Below are positions 2,177 to 13,788 of a stretch of 46,842 nucleotides of DNA, in pieces (positions within the stretch are counted from its first letter, which is position 1; each line of letters begins with the position of its first letter). Both the position numbers and the translations under genes were made by a program. This stretch comes from Candidatus Chloroploca mongolica (lineage in GTDB: Bacteria; Chloroflexota; Chloroflexia; Chloroflexales; Chloroflexaceae). The notes beneath the pieces were generated by a model. It worked only from the letters and a program-made list of their open reading frames with translations, did no database searches and was not told where the DNA came from. Location of the stretch: NCBI RefSeq assembly GCF_004762035.2, contig NZ_SIJK02000038.1, forward strand, positions 1 to 46,842. The letters are read 5' to 3'.

Positions 2177-4069
2177 CTAAGCATCATGCGTATGCTGGCG
2201 AAAACGGCCAGCTTTGCTGGCCGTTTTCGCCAGCATACGCATGATCGTGTTAGCGCAGCAAGGAAAACCATGCTCGATTATTACTGGACAATGGCGCGTA
2301 CGGCGATTATCACCCAGTTTCAATACCGCACCGCCAATTATTTTTATATGATTGGCATGATCGCCGAGCCGGTGATTTATCTGGTGGTCTGGAGTACAAT
2401 CGCAACAGCGCAGGGCGGCGAGGTGGGCGGTTTTACGCCAGGAGCCTTTGCGGCCTACTATATTGTGTGGACGTTGGTGCGCAACATGAATATCGTTCTG
2501 ACACAAAGTACGTTCTACAGACTGTTGCGTGAGTTTAGCCAGGAACTTGAAGCGCTTGCCGCCCGCGTTCCCGTCTTCACCCGCTTCGAACCAGACAGTA
2601 ACCTGAACGTCCAACATTTCAAGAATGCGTTCCTGGGTATCCTGGGTGATCGTTCCTTCGTCGATCGCCCGCCGGACGTGGCGAACCGTGGTAAGCAGTT
2701 CGTCAACCTGGCTATCGAGGAACCCGTGTGACGCGAGTTCAGCGTCAACGCGGCGTAGTTCTGTTTCGGCTGAACGCTTCGCCTGTTCGATCCCAGCCTT
2801 CTGTTGCGCTACTTCGTCAATGGTTAGGATATCAGCAGTGAACAGCTTGACGATCTTCGTGATATGGGTGGTTGCGGCGTCAACCTGGGTAAGGTAGCTT
2901 GCCCGCTCTGCAAGCAACGCCGCCCGCCGATCTTCCGTGCTAACCCGTTGGGCTTCCACACCCGCCCGTACTGCGTCTTCGCATATCACTTCGTCAAGCA
3001 ACCATTGCCATACCATAGGTTCGATCTCGGACGCGAAGACGAACGACTTGACGCCTGGGTGACGATCTTTATGGGTACAGGTATAAAAGCGCTTGTCAAC
3101 GCAGAGATCTTTGTTATAGAACCCTCGGTGCTTCCCTTGCATAGCATACCCACAACCACAGGTGATCCGCCCGCGTAGCAGGTAGGGTGCTTTGGTGTTG
3201 CGCTTGCTGTTCTGGCGTCCAACGTTCAGCCGTGCGTCTGCAAGGTTCCACAGCCCTTCAGAGACAACCGCCGGAACGGGTACCACACCATAGCGGCTGG
3301 TATATTCACCCTTATATACCGCGTTCCGCAAGATCGCGTTGACGTTCCCTCGGTTCCACAGGTGGCTACGTTCGTTCCGTTCGCCCTTCAGGTTCCGGCT
3401 TGCCAGGTGCTTATCAGAACGGGCACGGGTTGCGCTTGCCTTGGGCACACCAGCGGCGTTCAGTCGTTCCGCTATGATCCGAGGTACTACCCGTTCCTCT
3501 GCGTACCAGGTGAAGATCTGGCGAACCCAGCTCGCTTCTTCTTCAAGAATGACAAGCTGCTTGTTTCGCTTCGTTCCTTCGAACTGGTACCCGTAGGAAG
3601 CTATCGGCCCTTGCCCTAAGATCTGGCCAGCTTCAACCTTCGCCCGCTTGCCACGGGTAAGCCGTTCCGAGATCTTCAACCGTTCGAACTCAGCAAAAGA
3701 ACTTTCTATCGTATCGAATAGCCGCCCTTCGGGTGTGTCTGCACTCTGGCCACGGCTAACCGCGTGAAGGCTAACGCCCTTCGCCTTCAGTTCGTCACGG
3801 ATCAAAAGCATATGGGCAACGCTACGGGTTAGCCTATCGAGGGCGAAGACGATCACAGCGTCAACCGCACCCGCGTTCACCAGTTCACGGACGCGGGTTA
3901 AGCCCGGACGATCTAGCCGGGAACCTGATAACACGTCTTCGACTTCACCCACAACCGTCAAGCCGTTGTTCGCGGCGTACGTGCGACAACCAGCGGCTTG
4001 ACTAGGTAAGCTGTGGTTGTTCTCTTGATCTTCCGTAGATACTCGGACGTAGATAACAGCGCGTTGCAT
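2177..4069 (-). CDS. int: Large serine recombinase (integrase) with host-derived C-terminus
   Basis: Site-specific recombinase for integration and excision. The resolvase-type catalytic domain opens with YVRVS (nucleophile Ser11, with Arg9) and contains the DRLTR motif. A Recombinase domain follows (about residues 150-290), then a zinc-ribbon-like segment (CGCG…YTC) and a long coiled coil (about 370-450). Residues 1-528 are element-encoded up to the attL core. The last 102 residues come from the antisense strand of the permease gene and are foreign. In the circular form the frame would instead continue at 13209 and stop at 13150, giving 547 residues. The start at 4069 follows GAGGGAA at good spacing. 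A promoter lies at 4143-4115 on this strand. Confidence 0.93.
   Translation of the reverse strand: MQRAVIYVRVSTEDQENNHSLPSQAAGCRTYAANNGLTVVGEVEDVLSGSRLDRPGLTRVRELVNAGAVDAVIVFALDRLTRSVAHMLLIRDELKAKGVSLHAVSRGQSADTPEGRLFDTIESSFAEFERLKISERLTRGKRAKVEAGQILGQGPIASYGYQFEGTKRNKQLVILEEEASWVRQIFTWYAEERVVPRIIAERLNAAGVPKASATRARSDKHLASRNLKGERNERSHLWNRGNVNAILRNAVYKGEYTSRYGVVPVPAVVSEGLWNLADARLNVGRQNSKRNTKAPYLLRGRITCGCGYAMQGKHRGFYNKDLCVDKRFYTCTHKDRHPGVKSFVFASEIEPMVWQWLLDEVICEDAVRAGVEAQRVSTEDRRAALLAERASYLTQVDAATTHITKIVKLFTADILTIDEVAQQKAGIEQAKRSAETELRRVDAELASHGFLDSQVDELLTTVRHVRRAIDEGTITQDTQERILEMLDVQVTVWFEAGEDGNAGGKRFKFLAKLTQQSVERTLCQNDIHVAHQRPHNIVGRKGSWRKTAHLAALRCCDCTPDHQINHRLGDHANHIKIIGGAVLKLGDNRRTRHCPVIIEHGFPCCANTIMRMLAKTASKAGRFRQHTHDA
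2183..2245. repeat. Perfect 30-bp hairpin between ATPase and permease genes
   Basis: Arms 2183-2212 and 2216-2245 are perfectly complementary around a TTT loop. The apex GGCCAGC-TTT-GCTGGCC is the same as in the hairpin at 46327-46351 (AAA loop there) and close to that at 22011-22057. Here it lies inside an operon, 20 bases after the ATPase stop and 25 before the permease start. It could dampen or process the transcript between the two genes. No T-run follows. Confidence 0.85.
2270..2731 (+). pseudogene. ABC-2 permease A, 5' fragment interrupted by the element
   Basis: Starts at ATG 2270 (MLDYYWTMARTAII) after AAGGAAA. Native sequence continues to the attL core at 2486-2496 (…WTLVRNMNIV), about 76 residues covering the cytoplasmic start and first membrane segments. 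After the core the frame enters the element and adds about 77 unrelated residues, antisense to the recombinase, before stopping at 2731. The missing part is intact at 13210-13788 in the same frame. Joined at the core, the two parts make a 264-residue ABC-2 permease, a normal family length. The gene is therefore split rather than decayed and should be restored by precise excision. Confidence 0.92.
2486..2496 (+). other. attL: attL core (direct repeat ATGAATATCGT)
   Basis: Left copy of the 11-bp identity. Left flank GTGCGCAAC belongs to the permease gene; right flank TCTGACACAAAGTA is the element arm. In the reconstructed attP, TTTGTGT at 13196-13202 and ACACAAA at 2501-2507 form a dyad centred on the AA dinucleotide 2489-2490. 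In the reconstructed attB, GGTG (2476-2479) and CACC (13224-13227) are symmetric about the same AA. This suggests AA as the crossover dinucleotide. Confidence 0.85.
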
Positions 4070-4215
4070 AGCCGTTCCCTCTCAGATAGTTCGAACACAA
4101 AAGCCCATACCGCAAGTATACCAGATATGCCACTAACGCACAATGATAGCTTATCATTGCAAAGTAATATGCTATAATACCGCTAACGTTAGTCGTCTGA
4201 AGGGAGGTGAGAGGG
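4070..4215. promoter_or_regulatory. Divergent int/xis control region with palindromic operators
   Basis: Leftward promoter for the recombinase: -35 TTGTGC at 4143-4138, a 17-bp spacer and -10 TATACT at 4120-4115. Rightward promoter for the HTH gene: extended -10 TGCTATAAT at 4170-4178. The perfect inverted repeat CAATGATA-GCT-TATCATTG (4141-4159) overlaps the leftward -35 and lies just upstream of the rightward -10. A second palindrome, CTAACGTTAG (4183-4192), has a half-site at 4132-4138. This layout suits one regulator controlling both directions, perhaps the HTH protein itself. Confidence 0.7.
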
Positions 4216-4440
4216 TTGGATCAAAAGTTCTATACGGTGGAAGAAGTAAGCGAACAGTTGCGGCTTCGTGGCGTCAAGTTCGCGCCACGGACGATCCGCA
4301 AGTTGATCGCAGACGGGAAGTTGCGGGCGGTTCGCTTTGGCGAACGAACGTTATACGTCTCGGAAAGCGAACTGAACCGCTTTTTATCGGAACCAGACGG
4401 GCCGGGGCAATGGCGAACCCTGACAATAGCGTCACGTTGA
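4216..4440 (+). CDS. Excisionase-like helix-turn-helix protein (candidate directionality factor)
   Basis: A 74-residue protein. FYTVEEVSEQL…APRTIRKLIADGKLRAVRFGERTLYVSESELNRFL is the standard excisionase/MerR-like DNA-binding HTH (HTH_17 type) pattern. I prefer the TTG start at 4216, because GGGAGGTG (4202-4209) is 6 bases upstream. A GTG at 4207 would overlap that ribosome site. Its place next to and divergent from the recombinase makes it the best candidate for the recombination directionality factor, but that role is inferred. Confidence 0.8.
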   Translation: MDQKFYTVEEVSEQLRLRGVKFAPRTIRKLIADGKLRAVRFGERTLYVSESELNRFLSEPDGPGQWRTLTIASR

Positions 4441-4506
4441 CAGCGCACTATTGCCAGGGTTGGGTGAACGGCGCTCGGAACGCCGCCACACCTATTGTAC
4501 CCGTAA

Positions 4507-4567
4507 GTGTAGCAAAGATATATAGGGTTGCTACACTTGCTACACGCTACACTTGCTACACTTTGCA
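4507..4567 (+). repeat. Left GCTACAC repeat array
   Basis: GCTACAC occurs at 4530-4536, 4539-4545, 4546-4552 and 4555-4561, with an opposed copy GTGTAGC at 4507-4513. The opposed copies bracket an AT-rich centre GATATATA. Essentially the same sequence, inverted, is at 12698-12752; about 40 bases are identical. It stands before the membrane-protein/translocase genes. It may be replication iterons, a binding site of the translocase (like AICE clt repeats) or a regulator site. Confidence 0.85.
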
Positions 4568-4587
4568 ACCGAAAGAAGGTACCTGTT

Positions 4588-5202
4588 ATGGGAGAAAACA
4601 CACCTCGTTCGTCATGTCTCTCGAGAATGTTGGACGTACGCGGCTACGTGATCGCCGCCCGCCGTTCCTCGGTGAACGCTGAACCCGCAGCTGCGTTGTT
4701 TATGGCGTTGATCTTCGGGTTGATCGCCCTGGCCTTGTTCCCGCTCTGGGTGACGTTCGACTTGCTGAGTACCTGGGACTTCACGACGGCGATCCGCTTT
4801 GCGTCTGAAGACGCGATCTACGATATGGCGTACCAGGTTGAAGGTTGGACGAACTTATCAGTTGGCGCGGCCCTGGCTGGGATCGTCTTCACCTCGTTCA
4901 CCTTGCTACCCAGCTTGTTCGAACTGGCGTTCCCAGCGGTATCACACCCGTTGCTGAACCTGGTTCTGATCATAAGCATTGTTTTTGACTACATAACCGA
5001 CTGGCCCAAAGCTTCCGCCCTGGCTTCCCAATGGACTGACAACAGCCTGATCGCGTTCCTCTATAGCGTAGCCCTTACTGCGTTCGTGTCGGTTGGTGTG
5101 CAAGCGTTACTCGTGGTTGCGGTTACCGTCGTGATCTTCTCACTGCTTGCCCTGGTTCGTGGCGGTACCCAGCGGGCAACGGTGATCATTGATCAGCAGT
5201 AA
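4588..5202 (+). CDS. Element-encoded membrane protein, unknown function
   Basis: A 204-residue protein with four likely membrane segments (about residues 36-58, 94-118, 124-145 and 165-195) and a short soluble N-terminus with an Arg-rich stretch. The ATG at 4588 follows AGAAGG at 8 bases. The translocase gene begins 12 bases after its stop, so the two form a unit. I do not recognise the family. Context suggests a membrane partner of the DNA translocase, in DNA transfer or surface exclusion; this is inference. Confidence 0.75.
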   Translation: MGENTPRSSCLSRMLDVRGYVIAARRSSVNAEPAAALFMALIFGLIALALFPLWVTFDLLSTWDFTTAIRFASEDAIYDMAYQVEGWTNLSVGAALAGIVFTSFTLLPSLFELAFPAVSHPLLNLVLIISIVFDYITDWPKASALASQWTDNSLIAFLYSVALTAFVSVGVQALLVVAVTVVIFSLLALVRGGTQRATVIIDQQ

Positions 5203-5214
5203 GAGGTGATCGTT

Positions 5215-6516
5215 ATGCTGGCAACCCTTGACGAGGTGATCCGGGCGGTATCCATTGGGCTGTTTGGCGGGTTAGCCGGTACCGCCGTGGTAACGTTCCC
5301 AGGTAGCCCGCTCTGGTTGGTTCCGGCTGGCGCGGCGGTTGCTGGGTGTGCGTTGACGATCCCAGAGATCCGGAACGAGGTACGGGCGCTGTTACCAGAC
5401 AGCGCAACCGTACGCGGGTTGTTACCAGCGTCTTCCCGTGGGCACGAACGCCCACGGGAACAACCGGAACGCACCCAGGAACGCACAGGAACGCCCACAA
5501 CGCACGGAACGGACACACCCGCTGTCAACCTTCACGAACGGCTAGACAGCACACCACACCGCCTAGTTGTCGGACACACGGGCGGAGGAAAGACAACCCT
5601 ACTTCACAGCATGGCTACCCGTTGGGCCGAAACAAGTCGGGTGATCGTGTGTGATCCGGACGCGGCGCCGGGTATGTGGGCTGGGTGTGAAGTAGCCGGT
5701 TACGGTGACGATCTATCGTCGATAGCCGCTAGTCTGAACGAGGTACGGAACGAGATCACACGACGGCGAACCGCACGGGCGGGCGGTGTGCGCTCGTTCC
5801 CTCCGCTTCACCTGGTGGTTGACGAAGCCCATATGCTCCGAGAGGTACCGGACGCCCTACCCGTGATCGAAGACGTGCTACGACGCGGGCGCAAGTTGAA
5901 CGTACGGGCAACCCTGGGAACCCAGGATAGCCAGGTTGGAACGTTGGGCCTTGAAGGCAAGTCGGCATTACTGGCAAACCTACAACGGGTTGACGTGGTA
6001 CGGGAACCAGACGGCCGCCGGGTTGCCAGGTTCGGGAAAGACGACACGCAGACGATCCCGAACTTGCCCGATCCGGAACAGTTCATAACCCGGAACCCTC
6101 GGACGATCCGCGTTCGCCGCGTTCCGGCTGAACCGCACAGGAAGCCCGTAGCGGCGGAACAAGACGATCTCCTAACCACCCTACTGAACAGCGTTCCTAG
6201 CGCGTCTGCAAGCCCTGGGAACGCTTCAGGGAACGGTGTGGATACTGTTCCTCTGGGAACAGTATCCACAGACGGGAACGAGGTACAGATCGAGGAACGC
6301 GGCGGCGATATCACCGTCAATGTAACCCAGGTAGTACCGCCACGGTTGGGCGGAACGAGGGCACGCAAGAAAGCCGATACCGCTGAACTTGAAGCCAGGT
6401 ACCGCGAACGTGGCGCGGCGGGTGTGACGTTCCGGGAAGCGTACGCTGAATTGAAGGGGTCGAAAGAAATTGCGTTCACAGCTTGGCAAGAAGGTAAGGG
6501 TACCCGAACGACGTAG
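5215..6516 (+). CDS. Membrane-anchored FtsK/HerA-type DNA translocase ATPase (Tra-like)
   Basis: A 433-residue protein. Two hydrophobic segments lie near the N-terminus (about 11-29 and 32-50). A charged, threonine/proline-rich linker follows, then a P-loop ATPase with Walker A GHTGGGKTT (120-128) and Walker B LHLVVDEAH (198-206). The C-terminal tail (about 385-433) looks like a small helical DNA-binding region. This is the layout of FtsK/TraB and VirD4-like DNA pumps. Single TraB-type proteins move double-stranded DNA between cells in actinomycete elements, and the same role is proposed here. The ATG at 5215 is preferred over the GTG at 5206, because AAGAGG at 5201-5206 serves as ribosome site. 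Confidence 0.85.
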   Translation: MLATLDEVIRAVSIGLFGGLAGTAVVTFPGSPLWLVPAGAAVAGCALTIPEIRNEVRALLPDSATVRGLLPASSRGHERPREQPERTQERTGTPTTHGTDTPAVNLHERLDSTPHRLVVGHTGGGKTTLLHSMATRWAETSRVIVCDPDAAPGMWAGCEVAGYGDDLSSIAASLNEVRNEITRRRTARAGGVRSFPPLHLVVDEAHMLREVPDALPVIEDVLRRGRKLNVRATLGTQDSQVGTLGLEGKSALLANLQRVDVVREPDGRRVARFGKDDTQTIPNLPDPEQFITRNPRTIRVRRVPAEPHRKPVAAEQDDLLTTLLNSVPSASASPGNASGNGVDTVPLGTVSTDGNEVQIEERGGDITVNVTQVVPPRLGGTRARKKADTAELEARYRERGAAGVTFREAYAELKGSKEIAFTAWQEGKGTRTT

Positions 6517-6703
6517 CGGGTACTACGAACAACCGGCTACGCCCTTCGTCGCGCCAGTGAACAGCAACGCCGCTATGGGTGATCCCGTGGCGGCGTTGCT
6601 GTCTGAACTTGACGCAGACGCGGAACGGCTACTAACCGAACTTGACGCAGACATGCCACGGCTGTTAGCAGGGTTGCCCAACGTCACGGGCAATAACGCG
6701 TAA
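6470..6703 (+). CDS. Small acidic hypothetical protein
   Basis: A possible 77-residue protein overlapping the end of the translocase gene in another frame. It would start at TTG 6470, with AAGGGG upstream; an inner ATG at 6575 gives 42 residues. The C-terminal half repeats a short Leu/Asp pattern (ELDADAERLLTELDADMPRLLAGL). No family is recognised. Tight coupling to the previous gene is the main support. Confidence 0.45.
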   Translation: MRSQLGKKVRVPERRSGYYEQPATPFVAPVNSNAAMGDPVAALLSELDADAERLLTELDADMPRLLAGLPNVTGNNA

Positions 6704-6922
6704 TGCAAATGCTAGTACGCAGTACAAAGGTGTACTACGTTTTGTATCCGTTTTGTATGCATACTAGCATTGCAATAGTGCAATATTTTGCACGTACAAA
6801 AGTGTCTGTTTTGTATATCATAATTGACACACAATTTGCCCTTGATCTTTTGTTCTACACCGGGTATACTCACCCAGAGTACACGCCGTACACACGGTAC
6901 ACGACGAAAGAGACGGGAAGAA
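6704..6922 (+). promoter_or_regulatory. Repeat-rich AT-rich control region of the replication operon (possible origin)
   Basis: A promoter, -35 TTGATC (6842-6847), 17-bp spacer and -10 TATACT (6865-6870), drives the genes from 6923. Three direct copies of GTACAC (6879-6884, 6888-6893, 6897-6902), spaced by exactly 9, lie between it and the first gene and fit an autoregulatory site of the ribbon-helix-helix protein. Upstream are AGTACA-AAGG-TGTACT, an ATGCTAGT/ACTAGCAT inverted pair and three TTTTGTAT copies. The low GC and nested repeats fit an origin, oriT or complex operator. Confidence 0.65.
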
Positions 6923-7099
6923 ATGAAGGAAAGTACGAAACTTCAACCGCGAACGTTCCGCCTAGATCCGGCTGATCTGGCTACCCTTGCAGTGATCGCG
7001 GAACGCCACGGAACGACGGTGACACGCACCGCACGGACGCTGTTAGAAGTATCACTTGAAGCGATCCGTGCCCACTTGGACGCAGAGGGAGGGAAGTAA
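6923..7099 (+). CDS. Small ribbon-helix-helix-like DNA-binding protein
   Basis: A 58-residue protein. TFRLDPADLATLAVIAERHGTTVTRTARTLLEVSLEAI has the strand-helix-helix pattern of CopG/Arc-type proteins. GGGAAG lies just before the ATG. The stop overlaps the next ATG (TAATG), so it is translationally coupled to the radical SAM gene. It probably represses its own operon at the GTACAC repeats and may act as a copy-control factor for the replication protein; these roles are inferred. Confidence 0.75.
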   Translation: MKESTKLQPRTFRLDPADLATLAVIAERHGTTVTRTARTLLEVSLEAIRAHLDAEGGK

Positions 7100-7878
7100 T
7101 GCAAGCGATCTATACACCCAAAGGGAAAGCGGGTGAATACGCACCACTGGCGACAAACCCGTATAGCGGTTGTGGGCATGCCTGTGCGTATTGTTACGTT
7201 CCGCGTATTCCTGGGTTGATCACACGGGAAGTCTTCAACGCGGGCGCGGTGGTACGCCCTGGCTACCTTGACGCCCTCCGCAAAGACGCACAGCGCTTGC
7301 AGAAACGAGGTGTAGCCGATCAAGTCCTACTCTCGTTCAGTACCGATCCGTATCACCTCGGTGACACCAGCGTAACCCGCGAAGCGCTGATCATTCTGCG
7401 TGATCACGGCTTTGGTTTTTGTACGTTGACGAAGGGCGGAACGCGGGCGCTACGGGATCTTGATCTCTTTCGCCCTGAACGAGACGCCTTTGCAAGTAGC
7501 TTGACGTGTCTCGACGACACGATATCACGCAAGTGGGAACGGAACGCCGCCCTACCTGAAGATCGGCTTGACGCCCTCCGCACGTTTCACCGTTCCGGTA
7601 TCTTCACCTGGGTAAGCTTGGAACCTACGCTTGACGAAGCAACCAGCATAGCCATTATCGAACGAACGCACAGCTATGTTGATCTCTTCAAGATCGGGAA
7701 AGCAAACTATATCGGTATCGATATCGACTGGGAACGCTACACCCTTCAGGTTATCGAGACGTGTACCCGGCTGGGTGTGCGTCACTACATTAAGCAGGAT
7801 CTTCAACGGTACCTCCCGGCTGGGTACCACAACCCACAGGCTATCGATCAATTTCACACACAAGGGAAAGCAGCATGA
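7099..7878 (+). CDS. Radical SAM protein, SplB/COG1533-like
   Basis: A 259-residue protein. The cluster motif NPYSGCGHACAYCYVP has Cys25, Cys29 and Cys32 in the CX3CX2C spacing of radical SAM enzymes; the surroundings match the spore photoproduct lyase-like group (COG1533), which is common in phages and mobile elements. STDPYH and TLTKGGTRALRDLDL are further typical segments. It lacks the N-terminal part of true spore photoproduct lyases, so DNA photoproduct repair is only a possibility. It sits in a tight operon just before the replication protein, overlapping neighbours by 1 and 4 bases. The role in the element is unknown. Confidence 0.85.
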   Translation: MQAIYTPKGKAGEYAPLATNPYSGCGHACAYCYVPRIPGLITREVFNAGAVVRPGYLDALRKDAQRLQKRGVADQVLLSFSTDPYHLGDTSVTREALIILRDHGFGFCTLTKGGTRALRDLDLFRPERDAFASSLTCLDDTISRKWERNAALPEDRLDALRTFHRSGIFTWVSLEPTLDEATSIAIIERTHSYVDLFKIGKANYIGIDIDWERYTLQVIETCTRLGVRHYIKQDLQRYLPAGYHNPQAIDQFHTQGKAA

Positions 7879-8000
7879 AGACGTATACCACACAACAGCG
7901 CACGGTGTTTGCAGAGATCGTGCGGTTGGTTCTGAAAGACGTTCCGATCATTCCGGTACCGCTGGGTGATCGGGTTGGTGAACGCACCCTAGCCCGCTAA
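7875..8000 (+). CDS. 41-residue hypothetical protein
   Basis: Starts with MKTYTTQQRTVFAEIVRLVL. It overlaps the previous stop by ATGA and ends 13 bases before the replication protein start. The overlap on one side and ribosome-site spacing on the other support real translation. No family is recognised. Confidence 0.6.
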   Translation: MKTYTTQQRTVFAEIVRLVLKDVPIIPVPLGDRVGERTLAR

Positions 8001-8013
8001 CGAGGTGAACGAT

Positions 8014-10506
8014 ATGACGCCATTGCAAGCGGCGTTAAAACTACACGACTTGGGCGCGAACGTAACGGCTATTCCCGAAGGCAAGAAGGAACCTGCCCAC
8101 AAGTGGAAGAAGCTTGAAGCCGTGCGTATGCCACGGGAAGCCGTTCGAACCCTTACCAAATGGGATAGCCCTGGTGGGTGGTATCGAGGTGAAGAGTACC
8201 CGCCCATTGGTACGGTTGGTATTGTCAACGGGATCGCCAGCTGGCGAACGATCGACGTTGACGCCGCGAAGGTGAACGACGTGAAGCAACCGGTACCCGT
8301 GAAGGTGCTTGACACCCTGCTCGGTGCCCTGGGGTTGCCCATAACCTACCCGTGGGCGGGTTCGTCTCGTTCGGGTAAGGGCTTCCACGTTCACGTACGG
8401 TGTGAAGGTGAACTACCCGAACAGATCCGCCTAGCGGCGAAGAAGGACGAACCGGGTGTTATGACACTTCACCCAGCGGCGAACTTCGCCGGGTTGTTCG
8501 ATCACGTTGAACTACGCTGGGAACGGTGCCAAACGGTGTTACCTTCACCCATGGGCTACGAAGGGAACGGCATACCCAGCGAACCGCCCGCCCTGGTTGA
8601 CGTTGATCGCGTAGTTGCGGCGTTGCTTGCCATTGCAGAACCAGCGAAGCCGAACGAGGTGAAGACAGCCAGGGCCACGGCGAAGCCCACGGCGGCCACG
8701 GCGAAGATCGCGGCACCTGTTCAGCAGGGTAGCCACGGGAAGATCACACAGCAGACGCTAGACGCTATTCATAGCCGGTTCGACTGTGTAGCCTGGTTCA
8801 CGGCTGAACTGAACGCAGATACAGACGAAGAACCCAACGGCGATATCCGTATCCTTGGGCATACCGGGTTGATCGTCACGAAGCATAAAACCGGGTGGTA
8901 CGTCTTCGGCGAAGATCGCGGCGGTTCGTGGAAAGACGCGGTTGCATACACGCGGAACCTTGACGTACAAAACGACTTCCGAGAGATCGCGTTGATCGCG
9001 GCTGACTTCCTGAAGATCACCGTGGCATACGACGAACCAGACGCCACGGCGAACCGTACGAACGGAAGATACGACGAAGCCGGTACCCGTGTGGCGCTGT
9101 GGGTACCGGCTTCCTCTGGTTCGTTCCGTGAACTTCCAACGTGGGCAAACGTGACGGACGAAGCGGCGGCAAACGCTTCACCCTGGCTTGACGCGTATCT
9201 CAATTATAGCAGAGTTTGGTCCCCACGTTCATACGACGGCTTCCACACGGCTAGCGCCCTCTGGTTGCTGTCAACTATCGCCGCCCGCCGGGTTGCCTTC
9301 GACTTGGGTAGCCGCCGGTTCACAAACCTGTATATCGCCCTGTGTAGCCGTACCAGTTTGTACGCGAAAACTTCCGCCGTGAAGATCGCGGGTGATCTGT
9401 TAGAACGGGCTGGGTTGTCGTTCCTGTTGCTTCCCAGCGAAAGCACACCAGCGGCGTTCCTCCGAGGGTTAGCCGGGAGGGTACCGGATAGCTGGGAGGT
9501 GCTACCCGAAGAACAGCAGCGAACCGTCTTGTTAAAGCTAGCGTTCGCCGGACAACGCGGCTGGCAATATGACGAGTTTGGGCAAAAGATCGCCGCTATG
9601 CTGAAAGACGGCGGAATTATGGCTGACTTTCGCGGTATCCTTCGTCGGTTAGACGACACACCAGACTACTTTGAATATGAGACGATCAGCCGAGGGCTAG
9701 AACGGGTTGATCGCCCATACCTGTCACTGTTCGCGGCGTTGACACCTGCTGATCTTGCGCCCTTCGCCCGCAAGGGTTCGGCCTTGTGGGGCGACGGCTT
9801 CCTTGCCCGCTTCATTCTGGTAACGCCGCCCTCGGACGCGCTACCGAACCGGGAACGCTTTCCCGTCGGCACCCGCGTTCCGCCGGCAGAACTGGTAACA
9901 ACCTTGCGGAACTGGCACGAACGGTTAGGAACGCCACGGGCAACGGTGAACCCGCGTCCAACGGACGATAAACGCCAGAAGGCAACCTACGATATCGAGG
10001 TAACGCCGCGTGATCCGCAGGTATGCCAGTTCGGGAACGCGGTACGTGATCGCTTCTATGCGTACCATGACGCCCTCACGGAACTAGCCGCACAGTCCGA
10101 ACAGCAGGATCTTGACGGTTCCTACACACGGAACGCGGAACGGGCGTTCCGGGTTGCGGCGTTGCTGGCCAGCTTAGAGAACGACGGTGTTATCGAGGAA
10201 CGCCATTGGGCACGGGCGCAACAGATCGCGGAACAATGGCGGCGTGAACTGCACAACCTGGTTGACGCCCTGGCTACCCAGGAAGTACAAACCCGTTCCG
10301 CGTCTGTCGAAGACAAGATCCTACGGGTACTCGGACGCGGCGGCGATCATACCGCCCGTGAAGTTGCCCAGTTCGCCCATGTCAGTTCACAAGAAGCGCT
10401 AGCCTGTCTGTCAACCCTGGTAAACCTGGGTGAAGTTGACGTACAACCAGCGGGCCGGACGAACCGCTATAGCCTGTTACAACGGGAGAAACAACATGCC
10501 GCGTAA
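8014..10506 (+). CDS. Replication protein: PrimPol domain plus DUF3987-like helicase region
   Basis: An 830-residue protein. The N-terminal region resembles bifunctional primase-polymerase (archaeo-eukaryotic primase) domains: TIDVDAA supplies the metal-binding D-x-D (about residues 81-83) and SGKGFHVHV the conserved His (about 125). The region from about 370 to 620 (NLYIALCSRTSLYAKTSA…, WQYDEFGQ, RPYLSLFAALTPADL) looks like DUF3987/phage-plasmid helicase proteins; its P-loop is degenerate (SRTSLYAKTSA). A small winged-helix-like C-terminus ends the protein. It would prime or drive replication of the excised element, as Rep-PrimPol does in some AICEs. The start at 8014 follows GAGGTG. Confidence 0.82.
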   Translation: MTPLQAALKLHDLGANVTAIPEGKKEPAHKWKKLEAVRMPREAVRTLTKWDSPGGWYRGEEYPPIGTVGIVNGIASWRTIDVDAAKVNDVKQPVPVKVLDTLLGALGLPITYPWAGSSRSGKGFHVHVRCEGELPEQIRLAAKKDEPGVMTLHPAANFAGLFDHVELRWERCQTVLPSPMGYEGNGIPSEPPALVDVDRVVAALLAIAEPAKPNEVKTARATAKPTAATAKIAAPVQQGSHGKITQQTLDAIHSRFDCVAWFTAELNADTDEEPNGDIRILGHTGLIVTKHKTGWYVFGEDRGGSWKDAVAYTRNLDVQNDFREIALIAADFLKITVAYDEPDATANRTNGRYDEAGTRVALWVPASSGSFRELPTWANVTDEAAANASPWLDAYLNYSRVWSPRSYDGFHTASALWLLSTIAARRVAFDLGSRRFTNLYIALCSRTSLYAKTSAVKIAGDLLERAGLSFLLLPSESTPAAFLRGLAGRVPDSWEVLPEEQQRTVLLKLAFAGQRGWQYDEFGQKIAAMLKDGGIMADFRGILRRLDDTPDYFEYETISRGLERVDRPYLSLFAALTPADLAPFARKGSALWGDGFLARFILVTPPSDALPNRERFPVGTRVPPAELVTTLRNWHERLGTPRATVNPRPTDDKRQKATYDIEVTPRDPQVCQFGNAVRDRFYAYHDALTELAAQSEQQDLDGSYTRNAERAFRVAALLASLENDGVIEERHWARAQQIAEQWRRELHNLVDALATQEVQTRSASVEDKILRVLGRGGDHTAREVAQFAHVSSQEALACLSTLVNLGEVDVQPAGRTNRYSLLQREKQHAA

Positions 10507-11068
10507 CCTATACGACTACTACCCAACGCCCTACGCCCTTGCAGACGCGGTGTTAGCGAACTTGGCGGCTACGGGTGCGAACCCGAAGACGATCCTAGAC
10601 GTGGGCGCGGGTTCGGGTGTGTTTGGAACAGCCGCCCGATCCTGGTTCCCGAACGCCCATATCACGGGTATCGAACTACGGAACGAACCACACCCAGCGG
10701 CGTACGATACCTGGTACGCCGCAACAGACGCCCTGCTGTGCGAACTACCCAAGGTTGACGCGATCATAGGGAACCCGCCTTACGATCTTGCAGAACCGAT
10801 CCTACGCCGCGTCCTACCACAACTGAACGTTGCTGGGTGTGCGCTGTTTGTGTTGCGTCTGTCGTTCCTGGGAAGCGTGAAGCGTGAAGCCTTCTGGAAT
10901 GCACACCCAGCGGCGGAGGTATCGATCATTGTTCCGCGTCCAAGCTTCACCGCAGACGGGAAGACGGACGCGGCGGAGTATGCATTGTTCCGGTGGAATG
11001 CCTCGCTATCGAGGTACCCATACCAGAACTGGTTACGGTGGAAGAAACAGAACGAGGTGAACGTATGA
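10496..11068 (+). CDS. SAM-dependent DNA adenine methyltransferase-like protein
   Basis: A 190-residue protein with the SAM-binding motif DVGAGSG (35-41) and the amino-methyltransferase motif NPPY (93-96). NPPY with this spacing indicates an N6-adenine or related amino-methyltransferase. It is short and no restriction enzyme is nearby, so it is probably an orphan modification enzyme that protects the element DNA on entry. The ATG at 10496 overlaps the replication gene by 11 bases. The recognition sequence cannot be predicted. Confidence 0.8.
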   Translation: MPRNLYDYYPTPYALADAVLANLAATGANPKTILDVGAGSGVFGTAARSWFPNAHITGIELRNEPHPAAYDTWYAATDALLCELPKVDAIIGNPPYDLAEPILRRVLPQLNVAGCALFVLRLSFLGSVKREAFWNAHPAAEVSIIVPRPSFTADGKTDAAEYALFRWNASLSRYPYQNWLRWKKQNEVNV

Positions 11069-11574
11069 CGGCGGAACTAGTCTATCTACAAAACCAACTG
11101 AACGCCTTGGACGCCGCTATTGACGCGGTGAAGACAGACGCGGAACGGACGCGGTATGCCACGGTACAGATCGACGGTGTGTCGGACGAACTTACCCGGC
11201 TTGCCATGGCAAGCGCACGGAACGCCCTTGCGGAACGCTTCGACAGACAGCGGCGATCATTGGAAAGTGATCGCCTTCGGGTAGCGCAACAGTACGCACG
11301 GGCAAAGCAGAACCTTGCAGACGCACGGGCGAACCTTGCCAGGTTGGAAGCCGTAGCGGAGCGTGACGCACAGATCGCCCGTGAACTGAACGCGGCGATC
11401 CCACACCTCCAAGTAGCGGCTAGTCTTTGGCCTGTCGGGCGAGAGAACCGCACGGCGGCGGAACTTGCCCAACGTGCGAAAGCAGAAGCGGAACGCTACG
11501 CCCTCACAGCCGCAAACATAGCGCACCACCGGAACCAGATCGAACGGTTGTCAGAGGGTTGGAACGAAGACTAG
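11065..11574 (+). CDS. Coiled-coil hypothetical protein
   Basis: A 169-residue, Ala/Arg/Glu-rich, almost wholly helical protein with heptad-like spacing (LEAVAERDAQIAREL). It starts at ATG 11065, overlapping the methyltransferase stop as ATGA. An open frame extends upstream to 10993, but the overlap and the GAGGTGA ribosome site favour 11065. No family recognised. Confidence 0.65.
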   Translation: MTAELVYLQNQLNALDAAIDAVKTDAERTRYATVQIDGVSDELTRLAMASARNALAERFDRQRRSLESDRLRVAQQYARAKQNLADARANLARLEAVAERDAQIARELNAAIPHLQVAASLWPVGRENRTAAELAQRAKAEAERYALTAANIAHHRNQIERLSEGWNED

Positions 11575-11580
11575 CGCCCA

Positions 11581-11624
11581 ACGGCTTCACCCTGTTGCCC
11601 ATGTTCGTAGCAGGGTGAAGCCGT
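11581..11624. repeat. 14-bp inverted repeat between element genes
   Basis: Arms ACGGCTTCACCCTG (11581-11594) and CAGGGTGAAGCCGT (11611-11624) with a 16-base loop, 6 bases after the coiled-coil gene. No T-run follows. It may be a partial terminator or RNA processing site separating the replication unit from the next two genes. Confidence 0.7.
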
Positions 11625-11652
11625 CAACAAAAGCTAGCCAAGGAGAAACACC

Positions 11653-12033
11653 ATGGCACGAAACAAGCAGAAACAAGCCCAATTGATCGCCGCGATCATG
11701 TCCGGGTTGTCCGTACGTGACGCAGCGGCACAAGTGGGCGTGAACTATCAAACCGCCCGGATCTGGCATATGGAACCAGACTTCAAGCAACAGCTTGCAG
11801 ACGCACGAAAGTTGTTGATCGCAGACGCCTTAGACAAGCAGCTATCTATCGCCCGTACTGCGTCCGAGGTGATCGCGGCGATCTTGGGTGATCCCAGCGT
11901 TCCGCCCTCGGTGCGTCTGAAAGCAGCGGAGGGTGTGCTTGATCGGGTAACCACCTGGCTAGAATTGTCGGACTTGGACGCACGGCTTACCATTATCGAG
12001 GAACGACATGCGGCTGAACAAGCGGAGGGTTAA
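11653..12033 (+). CDS. HTH protein, terminase-small-subunit/transposase-HTH-like
   Basis: A 126-residue protein. Residues 8-45 (AQLIAAIMSGLSVRDAAAQVGVNYQTARIWHME) form a homeodomain-like HTH of the type seen at the start of phage small terminase subunits and transposases. No large terminase is present, so packaging is unlikely. A strong AAGGAG lies upstream of the ATG. It probably binds DNA of the element, for example at a regulatory or replication site. Confidence 0.65.
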   Translation: MARNKQKQAQLIAAIMSGLSVRDAAAQVGVNYQTARIWHMEPDFKQQLADARKLLIADALDKQLSIARTASEVIAAILGDPSVPPSVRLKAAEGVLDRVTTWLELSDLDARLTIIEERHAAEQAEG

Positions 12034-12427
12034 GAAGGCAATGGACGCAGCGGAACAGCGTATGATCGAACAAGCAGCGGCGATAGCGCAAGAAGTACGG
12101 GCAACCTTGACGGCGGAGGAATTGATCATACTTATGGCGGTTGCCCGTGATCTGGAACCCTACCCGGCTGAACTAGACAAGCGCACAACCGCCGATCTTA
12201 CCAGACGCGGCTTTTACTACCTCACGAACCCATTGGTAGAACGCTATGGGCGTGACGAAGTAACCCGCCGGTTGGTTGACGTTATGCCAGACACGCCGCG
12301 TGACGCCCTTCACCATATCCTACAACGGGCGGAACGTCACTACACGGGTGACGACGTAGCATACCTTGCGCTGTTGCGGCGGTTGGTTGCGGAGGAACGC
12401 GAACGAGAGGGTACCCATATGGGTTGA
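12008..12427 (+). CDS. Hypothetical helical protein
   Basis: A 139-residue charged helical protein that overlaps the preceding gene by 26 bases. GAGGAACG precedes the ATG. No domain is recognised. It is the last gene of the rightward unit: a strong terminator follows 26 bases later. Confidence 0.6.
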   Translation: MRLNKRRVKKAMDAAEQRMIEQAAAIAQEVRATLTAEELIILMAVARDLEPYPAELDKRTTADLTRRGFYYLTNPLVERYGRDEVTRRLVDVMPDTPRDALHHILQRAERHYTGDDVAYLALLRRLVAEEREREGTHMG

Positions 12428-12453
12428 AGACGTTTTCAGCGTCTTAGAATGGC

Positions 12454-12492
12454 GCACACGAAGCCGGGTTTTTCGGCTTCGTGTGCTTTTTT
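12454..12492 (+). terminator. Intrinsic terminator of the element operon
   Basis: A perfect 13-bp stem (12454-12466 with 12474-12486; arm GCACACGAAGCCG), a GGTTTTT loop and six T residues (12487-12492). It is placed right after the last rightward gene. Confidence 0.93.
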
Positions 12493-12545
12493 GTGTGCAG
12501 TGAGGTGTGAAGGTTCGAACCACGTTGTAGGCGTTCGCCCTGGCA

Positions 12546-12568
12546 AAATTCCGCACGGTGCGGAATTT
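12546..12568. promoter_or_regulatory. 23-bp palindrome in the right non-coding region
   Basis: AAATTCCGCAC-G-GTGCGGAATTT is a perfect inverted repeat with a one-base centre. A degenerate echo (AAATTGCGGTATTT) follows at about 12574-12587. It looks like a protein-binding site, such as an operator or resolution/replication site. I see no gene in 12493-12867; the region holds this palindrome, the right GCTACAC array and a hairpin. Confidence 0.7.
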
Positions 12569-12697
12569 CACGCAAATTGCGGTATTTCACCTCGAGACGG
12601 CGGCCGCCCTCAGTGAAGCCGCGGCGAAGCCACAACGCAGATCGGGCGGTGAACCTGGCAAGGAAAGCGCAAGGAAAGCGCAAGGGTGCGTAGCAAA

Positions 12698-12752
12698 GTG
12701 TAGCAAGTGTAGCGTGTAGCAAGTGTAGCAACCTTGTATATATCTGCTACAC
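12698..12752 (-). repeat. Right GCTACAC repeat array (inverted copy of the left one)
   Basis: GTGTAGC occurs at 12698-12704, 12707-12713, 12714-12720 and 12723-12729, with an opposed GCTACAC at 12746-12752 across a TATATATC centre. Spacing is the same as in the left array (4507-4567), and about 40 bases are identical in inverted orientation. Two GGAAAGCGCAA units precede it at about 12661-12683. Confidence 0.85.
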
Positions 12753-12827
12753 TTCCCGAACGAGAGGAACAAACACCATACAACAATACATATGTTCTAT
12801 TTTATCTTTTAGGGTGTTTGGGAAGAA

Positions 12828-12857
12828 GAGGAACGTACCAGACTGCGTACGTTCCTC
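12828..12857 (-). terminator. Hairpin after the 85-residue gene
   Basis: Arms GAGGAACGTAC (12828-12838) and GTACGTTCCTC (12847-12857) with an 8-base loop, 10 bases beyond the stop of the leftward gene. On that strand it is followed by a pyrimidine-rich TTCTTCCC stretch, so it may be a moderate terminator. Confidence 0.6.
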
Positions 12858-12867
12858 GTTCAGCAGG

Positions 12868-13125
12868 TTAGCGGGCGGTGATCGTGGCGTGTAGTCCGAG
12901 GGCGAAGAGGTGATCGGCTAGGGCGTTCGCCGTGGCGCGGTTGGTTGTTACCAGTTCGCCATGTTCCGTGAAGCGTACGAAGCCGGGTACCCGGCTGGCA
13001 AGGGTAGCGAAGTCTTCCCAGCAAAGATCGGGCGGAGGTGTGGTTGTGGCGGCCCTGGTAAGCAGACACAACGCCGCGTAGTAGCGGCGGCTGTCTTCGC
13101 TGTTCGGTGATACGGTGAAGTTCAT
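12868..13125 (-). CDS. 85-residue hypothetical protein, downstream of int only in the circle
   Basis: Encodes MNFTVSPNSEDSRRYYAALC… with a good GAGAGGAACC ribosome site. No family is recognised. In the circular element the recombinase stop at 13150 lies only 24 bases upstream on the same strand, so the two genes would form an operon driven by the int promoter at 4143-4115. In the integrated state that promoter is about 9 kb away and separated by host DNA, and I see no promoter of its own in 13126-13209. It may be expressed mainly after excision. A control or transfer/exclusion role is possible but unproven. Confidence 0.75.
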   Translation of the reverse strand: MNFTVSPNSEDSRRYYAALCLLTRAATTTPPPDLCWEDFATLASRVPGFVRFTEHGELVTTNRATANALADHLFALGLHATITAR

Positions 13126-13149
13126 AGGGTTGGTTCCTCTCTCAGCAGG

Positions 13150-13209
13150 TTACGCGGCGATCAACTTCGACAGAATGAGGTACGCGGGTTGTGCTTTTGT
13201 GTTAAGACT
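13150..13209 (-). other. int: Native 3' end of the recombinase gene, cut off by integration
   Basis: Joining the element ends at the att core makes the recombinase frame continue …NDIH then SLNTKAQPAYLILSKLIAA and a TAA stop (13152-13150). I translated this by hand, codon by codon: the core encodes (N/D)-D-I-H in the same phase at both junctions. The 19-residue tail ends in IAA, which resembles the C-terminal degradation signals read by ClpXP (such as LAA). In the integrated state these codons have no start and are not part of the recombinase. Confidence 0.85.
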
Positions 13210-13220
13210 ATGAATATCGT
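13210..13220 (+). other. attR: attR core (direct repeat ATGAATATCGT)
   Basis: Right copy of the 11-bp identity. The left flank CTTTTGTGTTAAGACT is the element arm and the right flank CTTCACCCCGTAC is the permease gene. Serine integrases need only a 2-bp central identity, so 11 bp is generous but ordinary. Confidence 0.85.
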
Positions 13221-13788
13221 CTTCACCCCGTACGGCTGGGAGTGGCGCATCAAGCGCGGTGATCTCTCTGCCTCGCTGCTCCGCCCGATCCATCCACTCC
13301 ATCAGGATCTTGCCTATTTTGGCGGCTGGAAGCTTGTGGTGATTGTGCTCTGGTTGCCGATTGCGGCGATCCTGGCCTTTATCTTTCAACCCACGCTGAA
13401 CCCAACCCCACTGGAGATCGGGGTCTTTGCTGTTGCGATCTGGGGGGCCTATCTCATTCGCTCGATGTTCCTCTGGCTGCTCGGCATGATCACGTTCTGG
13501 ACAACCCGCGTCAGTGCGCTCTATGAGCTCTATTTCGCGGTTGAACTGCTGCTCTCGGGGCGCCTCGTACCGATGAGTCTCTTGCCACCCTGGGCCCGCG
13601 ATCTCGCCATGTTTATGCCGTTCCAATGGACGTTTGGCTTTCCCATCGAGGCGCTCGTCGGGACGCTCAGTACCACCGAACTCCTGACCGGCCTGGCGAT
13701 CCAGGTGCTCTGGATTCTCATTGGCCTTGGGCTGGTGCAGCTTGTCTGGCGCGCCGGGGTACGCCGCTATGGCGCTGTGGGAGGGTAA
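13210..13788 (+). pseudogene. ABC-2 permease A, 3' fragment
   Basis: From the attR core (MNIV) the frame continues FTPYGWEWRIKRGDLSASLLRPIHP… through 192 residues with about five membrane segments and the usual permease end. It is in the same phase as 2270-2496, so excision rebuilds a 264-residue permease. The ATG inside the core has no ribosome site, so in the integrated state this part is probably not translated efficiently. No stop or frameshift has accumulated, which suggests recent insertion or continuing excision. Confidence 0.9.

Follow-up and report, generated by a model that had tools for sequence, protein, structure and literature searches.

A large serine integrase frame that crosses the attachment core of a Chloroploca element and ends in host DNA

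In mycobacteriophages with integration-dependent immunity, integration truncates or alters the phage gene that holds the phage attachment site (attP). The Int protein of Myxococcus phage Mx8 is a tyrosine recombinase. Its attP lies within int, and the passage on this phage in a review (PMC6070905) states that int acquires a new 3' end on integration, and that the enzyme is changed in specificity but not inactivated; a passage in a second paper (PMC4383910) also names Mx8 int as extending across attP. In the archaeal suicidal tyrosine integrases (SSV1, pTN3, pT26-2), the attachment (att) site again lies in the integrase gene, and integration changes that gene, according to the section that treats them in PMC8371274. 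Here we describe a mobile element of approximately 10.7 kb in Candidatus Chloroploca mongolica, in which the frame of a large serine integrase crosses the att core. The window, the whole stretch of DNA that was analysed, covers positions 1 to 46,842 of contig NZ_SIJK02000038.1 (46,842 nucleotides; assembly GCF_004762035.2).

The element splits an ABC-2 type permease gene at an 11-bp core, ATGAATATCGT. The features on which the argument rests are listed below by position in the window.

2486 to 2496: att core, integrase-end copy, identical to 13210 to 13220; the empty-site alignment ends here
13210 to 13220: att core, other-end copy, placed by identity with 2486 to 2496 and by the empty-site alignment
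2270 to 2485, plus strand: 5' part of the interrupted ABC-2 type permease gene, continuing through the core into 13221 onward; whole in genomes G001 and G002
13221 to 13788, plus strand: 3' part of the interrupted permease gene (Pfam ABC2_membrane_6, 7.2e-17 for 13210 to 13788)
2177 to 4069, minus strand: large serine integrase frame in its chromosomal form, 630 residues, with codons 529 to 630 in host DNA (Pfam Resolvase 6.1e-37, Recombinase 6.7e-12, Zn_ribbon_recom 1.9e-6)
2486 to 4069, minus strand: the part of the integrase encoded by the element, including the shared core, 528 codons
13150 to 13209, minus strand: inferred native 3' terminus of int, comprising 19 codons and a stop codon, in frame once the ends are joined at the core and parted from the gene by integration
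2501 to 2507: ACACAAA, possible attP arm, weak and seen by eye, with an inverted partner at 13196 to 13202
13196 to 13202: TTTGTGT, possible attP arm, likewise weak and seen by eye

A search of both strands found the two copies of the core and no third in the window. The 11-bp repeat alone is weak proof of a junction, because a match of at least 11 bp also occurs in 9 of 56 pairs of 600-bp stretches drawn at random from the window. The junction is placed at the core because two genomes of the same genus, G001 and G002 (G numbers denote the genomes compared), carry the empty site with an intact permease gene, and the rejoined window aligns with them without a gap over 817 bp spanning the core (94.5% identity to G002 and 91.7% to G001). 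When the flanks are rejoined, the permease frame is restored through the core and stays open to its own stop. The site is also present in the more distant G028 and G032, where the core carries one or two changes. The locus thus has a short core and a restorable bacterial attachment site (attB), as in site-specific insertion.

The exchange might instead start elsewhere, in which case the element would be defective or its true core would lie at another place, and the crossing of the frame would be accidental. Such a reading could draw on the chance level of the repeat and on the circular form: no excision circle was found, as the genome assembly holds one copy of the element and the 37-base attP junction of the inferred circle has no exact match in viral_contigs. 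The gap-free empty site exactly at the core in two genomes and the rejoining permease frame stand against it, and we regard it as very improbable. A scan for attP symmetry found no outstanding centre near the core in the window (in G029, the second case described below, the best centre scored 12 of 21 against 11 elsewhere). As no centre stands out at the window core, symmetry is not used as evidence for attP here.

The enzyme belongs to the large serine integrases. PF00239, PF07508 and PF13408 all score above cut-off and all fall within residues 4 to 355 of the chromosomal form, upstream of the core. Foldseek places serine integrase complexes at ranks 1 to 7 (E 2.7e-18 to 7e-13, with low template modelling (TM) scores of 0.17 to 0.25); the structural matches are to the SP-beta, Bxb1 and phiC31 integrases, and profile matches are to TP901-1, A118 and SP-beta chains.

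Read on the minus strand from 4069 to 2177, the integrase frame crosses the core in phase at both ends, as the initial annotation had claimed. In the inferred circle it would encode 547 residues, ending ...CQNDIH-SLNTKAQPAYLILSKLIAA with a stop codon at 13152 to 13150. In the chromosome it runs to 630 residues, of which 102 (630 minus 528) are foreign. The frame and the empty-site alignment thus uphold the proposal that attP lies inside the reading frame and that integration swaps 19 native residues for 102 host-encoded ones. The host tail reaches 102 residues only because the integrase frame happens to coincide with the antisense frame that mirrors the permease codons, which is open throughout; the other two frames meet stops after 8 and 16 residues. 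The openness of the native tail is not evidence of function, since by simple arithmetic a 20-codon open stretch has a probability of about 0.4 in random DNA. A long near-perfect palindrome (GCGTATGCTGGCGAAAACGGCCAGC...) lies at 2187 to 2244, directly upstream of the permease start; it translates as the final residues of the chromosomal integrase, and the alignments with G001 and G002 begin past it.

Some integrase match at E <= 0.001 was present in 50 of 100 relatives, and a profile search at 1e-60 retained 27 of the 158 genomes of the class. Six integrases, including that of the window, scored above 740 bits, and the next one scored 379. Junctions were studied in the five closest integrases (G023, 45% identical; G040, 43%; G029, 41%; G010, 40%; G032, 38%), leaving out G058, which has an in-frame stop, G016 and more distant integrases. 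Exact repeats of at least 10 bp near the int ends of these relatives gave no clear core; the boundaries of host DNA were instead set by comparison with homologous loci that are intact in other genomes. By this measure the stop codon lies within host DNA in four of the five. Host homology reaches into int by about 64 nt in G010 (a citrate-transporter-family gene, with the intact locus in six other genomes), 14 to 27 nt in G029 (seven other genomes), 46 nt in G040 (just before an amidohydrolase gene, six other genomes) and about 7 nt in G023 (where a D-Tyr-tRNA deacylase gene ends, eight other genomes). With the window, five integrases therefore have a host-encoded integrated end, and these tails measure about 1 residue in G023, 4 in G029, 14 in G040, 20 in G010 and 102 in the window, and differ in sequence too.

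In G029 both ends of the element lie on one contig, where a host gene is split into residues 3 to 52 and 47 to 418 around a 10,843-bp element. The first automatic pick for its core, by which the frame would be left unchanged, was ruled out by alignment with six host homologues; the ungapped alignment with these homologues places the crossover at a shared AA. Joining the ends there extends the open frame from 515 to 533 codons. The integrase ends ...AGEPI-SSTR in the chromosome and would end ...AGEPI-KSTPYNSKTIALTLTATLRYAA in the inferred circle, with 22 native residues past the crossover against 4 when integrated. A crossover in the neighbouring TCAAC would change one tail residue. A TDT-like identity was considered for the split host gene, but the first 258 residues of its homologue have no Pfam match. 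As reconstructed from sequence, the tail exchange of the window recurs in G029, at about 41% identity and in a different host gene. For both loci the two halves of an Mx8-like arrangement can be reconstructed, namely an int frame that crosses the core in the circle and a host-encoded end after integration.

These loci are related by their integrase and not by their element, since eleven frames of the window had no match (tblastn, 1e-3) in the regions of G029, G032, G040, G010, G016 and G023. Among genome_contigs a single sequence retrieved no related loci, and an alignment retrieved 128, of which 80 were kept. In viral_contigs there were 46 related loci, the best at 34%, and all 761 phage records were below 60%.

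The exchanged tail lies beyond the folded part of the enzyme as modelled. An AlphaFold model of the 630-residue form (mean predicted local distance difference test (pLDDT) score 67, predicted TM-score (pTM) 0.33, 6 sequences) gives confident predictions across most of a long coiled-coil region and in strands up to residue 513, the last of these being 502 to 513; confidence is below 50 over residues 515 to 630. The core lies about ten codons beyond the last confident fold, and the attP arms extend back toward that fold. The alignment of close relatives also fades ahead of the core. The initial annotation had asked whether homologous integrases end before the core, and the answer has two parts: their conserved, foldable portion does end earlier, but the frames of four relatives enter host DNA and that of G029 runs 22 residues past the crossover in the inferred circle.

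A conserved native tail was sought in the two cases in which one could be derived. A likeness between the tails of the window and G029, suggested by eye, had no support in a shuffle test, as 2268 of 5000 shuffles aligned globally and 2457 of 5000 aligned locally reached the score. The swapped tail looks dispensable, and host-encoded tails that run from about 1 to 102 residues are as would be expected of a part of little importance. The suggestion that the swap biases reaction direction or protein stability is possible and unsupported by these comparisons.

We therefore consider it likely that this is an element moved by a serine integrase of a group in which attP overlaps the extreme 3' end of int, past the fold, and that the swap is a tolerated by-product and no switch. 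The integrase would recombine the attP contained in int with an attB that lies in a gene of the host; after integration the int frame would run on into host DNA up to the first stop. An unstructured tail would so be replaced by random host-encoded residues, and excision would restore the native one. The integrated enzyme probably remains active, since its catalytic, recombinase, zinc-ribbon and coiled-coil parts all come to an end before the core. The passage of the frame through the core, the empty site and the stop codons supplied by the host in four relatives are directly visible in the sequences, and the ends of G029 agree with such an exchange; the circle, a crossover within the core and translation of both forms are deduced from them.

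Integration could on the other hand be self-crippling, with a long host tail that destabilises or inactivates the enzyme and leaves the copy stuck, like the archaeal suicidal integrases. The addition of 102 unrelated residues would fit, as would the archaeal integrases with att inside a gene that integration splits, as presented in that section of PMC8371274. Unlike in the archaeal case, where the catalytic domain is separated or destroyed, all three Pfam integrase domains are intact in the chromosomal form, and the relatives carry only about 1 to 20 host residues; we find this alternative quite improbable.

A further possibility involves the gene that would follow int in the circle, as well as the tail.

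12868 to 13125, minus strand: 85-codon frame on the strand of int, which in the inferred circle starts 24 bp past the int stop and has GAGAGAGGAACC ahead of its ATG

The 19-residue native tail might aid integration or restrain excision, so that its loss locks or unlocks the reaction, while int is also cut from the 85-codon frame. This state-dependent behaviour would be in keeping with a layout that recurs in a group whose members are only 38 to 45% identical, with the good ribosome-binding sequence before the following frame in the inferred circle, and with the changed specificity that the review passage reports for Mx8. However, the native tails of the window and G029 are unlike, the tail lies outside the confident fold, and the 70-codon frame that begins 21 bp past the native int stop of G029 has no similarity to the 85-codon frame (BLASTP E 1.9). 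We judge the state-dependent enzyme unlikely. It is rather unlikely that this group of serine integrases uses an attP in its own coding end as a built-in sensor of the integrated or free state, without a separate regulator, such that the circle enzyme has its native tail and int joined to the next gene, and the chromosomal enzyme has a host tail and int cut off. Neither Pfam nor PHROGs gave a match for the 85-codon frame. After integration the full length of the element would stand between this frame and int, and such uncoupling of a gene downstream of int is a lead, not a finding. A hairpin seen by eye after the native int stop of G029 was not listed by the terminator scan.

Several points weigh against the account that we consider most likely, in which the swap follows as a by-product from the compact arrangement of int and attP and does not act as a switch. 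The structural model is based on 6 sequences, and low confidence does not prove disorder. Two inferred native tails of 19 to 22 residues are available, and their dissimilarity is weak evidence. A tail swap can matter, as the review passage on Mx8 shows (PMC6070905). Among the relatives, the G023 frame includes only about 7 nt of host DNA. The left end in G010 is lost, and host homology restarts about 155 bp on, inside other element DNA. In each of the seven other genomes searched, the left flank of G040 corresponds to a different locus, and no native tail can be derived. For G032, neither an intact locus nor a left end was found; in translation the end of int is overlapped by an aldehyde dehydrogenase frame, and the homologues found are paralogues of 34 to 44% that leave the boundary unsettled.

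Some of these loci have features of their own. G010 and G040 are not clean insertions. In G010 (locus L035, 1 to 1653; locus L236, about 1900 to 1960) about 155 bp of the host transporter gene are gone, and element DNA resumes within an ATPase-like frame. In G040 (locus L034, 5062 to 5933 and 11208 to 11329) the flanks of the element match two unrelated loci of sister genomes, and the assembly also holds, on another contig, an empty site that is an intact 99% copy of the right flank. The flank mismatch may reflect copies of the element that have rearranged with each other, or an assembly that is mixed or chimeric. The integrase of G032 (locus L038, 11599 to 13248) stands nearly alone beside host genes and remnants of what resembles, by eye, a restriction-type gene; this element has probably decayed.

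The remaining recognisable genes of the window element all lie on the plus strand.

4207 to 4440, plus strand: HTH_17 protein, divergent from int, guessed to be a candidate directionality factor or regulator (Pfam HTH_17 3.9e-9; PHROGs excisionase/regulator family 0.0012)
5206 to 6516, plus strand: P-loop ATPase resembling FtsK or a terminase (PHROGs 1.3e-6; Pfam AAA_22 and AAA_10 weak, under the cut-off)
7099 to 7878, plus strand: radical SAM protein (Pfam 5.5e-12; PHROGs family of unknown function 1.4e-20)
8005 to 10506, plus strand: primase-polymerase/DUF3987 protein, likely the replication initiator of the element (Pfam DUF3987 3.3e-14, Prim-Pol 1.7e-5; PHROGs DNA primase 2e-15)
10430 to 11068, plus strand: DNA methyltransferase-like protein (PHROGs 6.9e-32)

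No virion structural genes were recognised among the element frames scanned. The primase-polymerase had no match in viral_contigs and one weak plasmid record, and the radical SAM protein is odd cargo for a mobile element. Short tandem units, TTGCTACAC / GTAGCAAGT, stand as inverted copies near both ends of the element, at 4528 to 4563 and 12690 to 12731 (92% over 65 bp, 4505 to 4569 against 12690 to 12754). They are iteron-like and perhaps an origin or binding array. A strong terminator-like hairpin (12454 to 12486, 15 pairs and a T run) follows the rightward gene block.

Should the tail swap have an effect, the DNA joint itself would encode the control of direction in a serine integrase. If it has none, annotators can still learn from it that serine integrases, once integrated, may have a C-terminus made of host sequence, and integrases and tool enzymes taken from genomes may bear false tails; the true attP would still lie partly inside the int gene. 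The value of the observation is in the recurrence of the exchange across the integrase family.

In domain layout the enzyme resembles the large serine integrases of SP-beta, Bxb1, A118, phiC31 and TP901-1. No attP is annotated in the whole TP901-1 record or in the stretches viewed of the A118, phiC31 and Bxb1 records. Predicted sites are available for 6,207 large serine recombinases (PMC10083194). In mycobacteriophage integration-dependent immunity the gene that holds attP is the repressor, whereas here it is the integrase. Archaeal suicidal integrase genes are divided into int(N) and int(C), which splits off the catalytic part; in the window only the tail past the folded domains is exchanged, and integration alters int rather than disrupting it. 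The initial annotation knew of no comparable system. This holds for serine integrases in the open-licence literature, where we found none with its own end exchanged (most subscription papers were beyond reach), and it does not hold for the principle. As in Mx8 int/IntP, attP lies inside the int coding sequence and integration supplies a new 3' end; unlike Mx8, the enzyme is a large serine integrase, and a change of specificity is reported, in the review passage, for Mx8 only. An attP within int and a swapped int end are thus already in print for Mx8 (PMC6070905), and, as far as the open-licence literature goes, the serine integrase case and its recurrence in the family are the new part.

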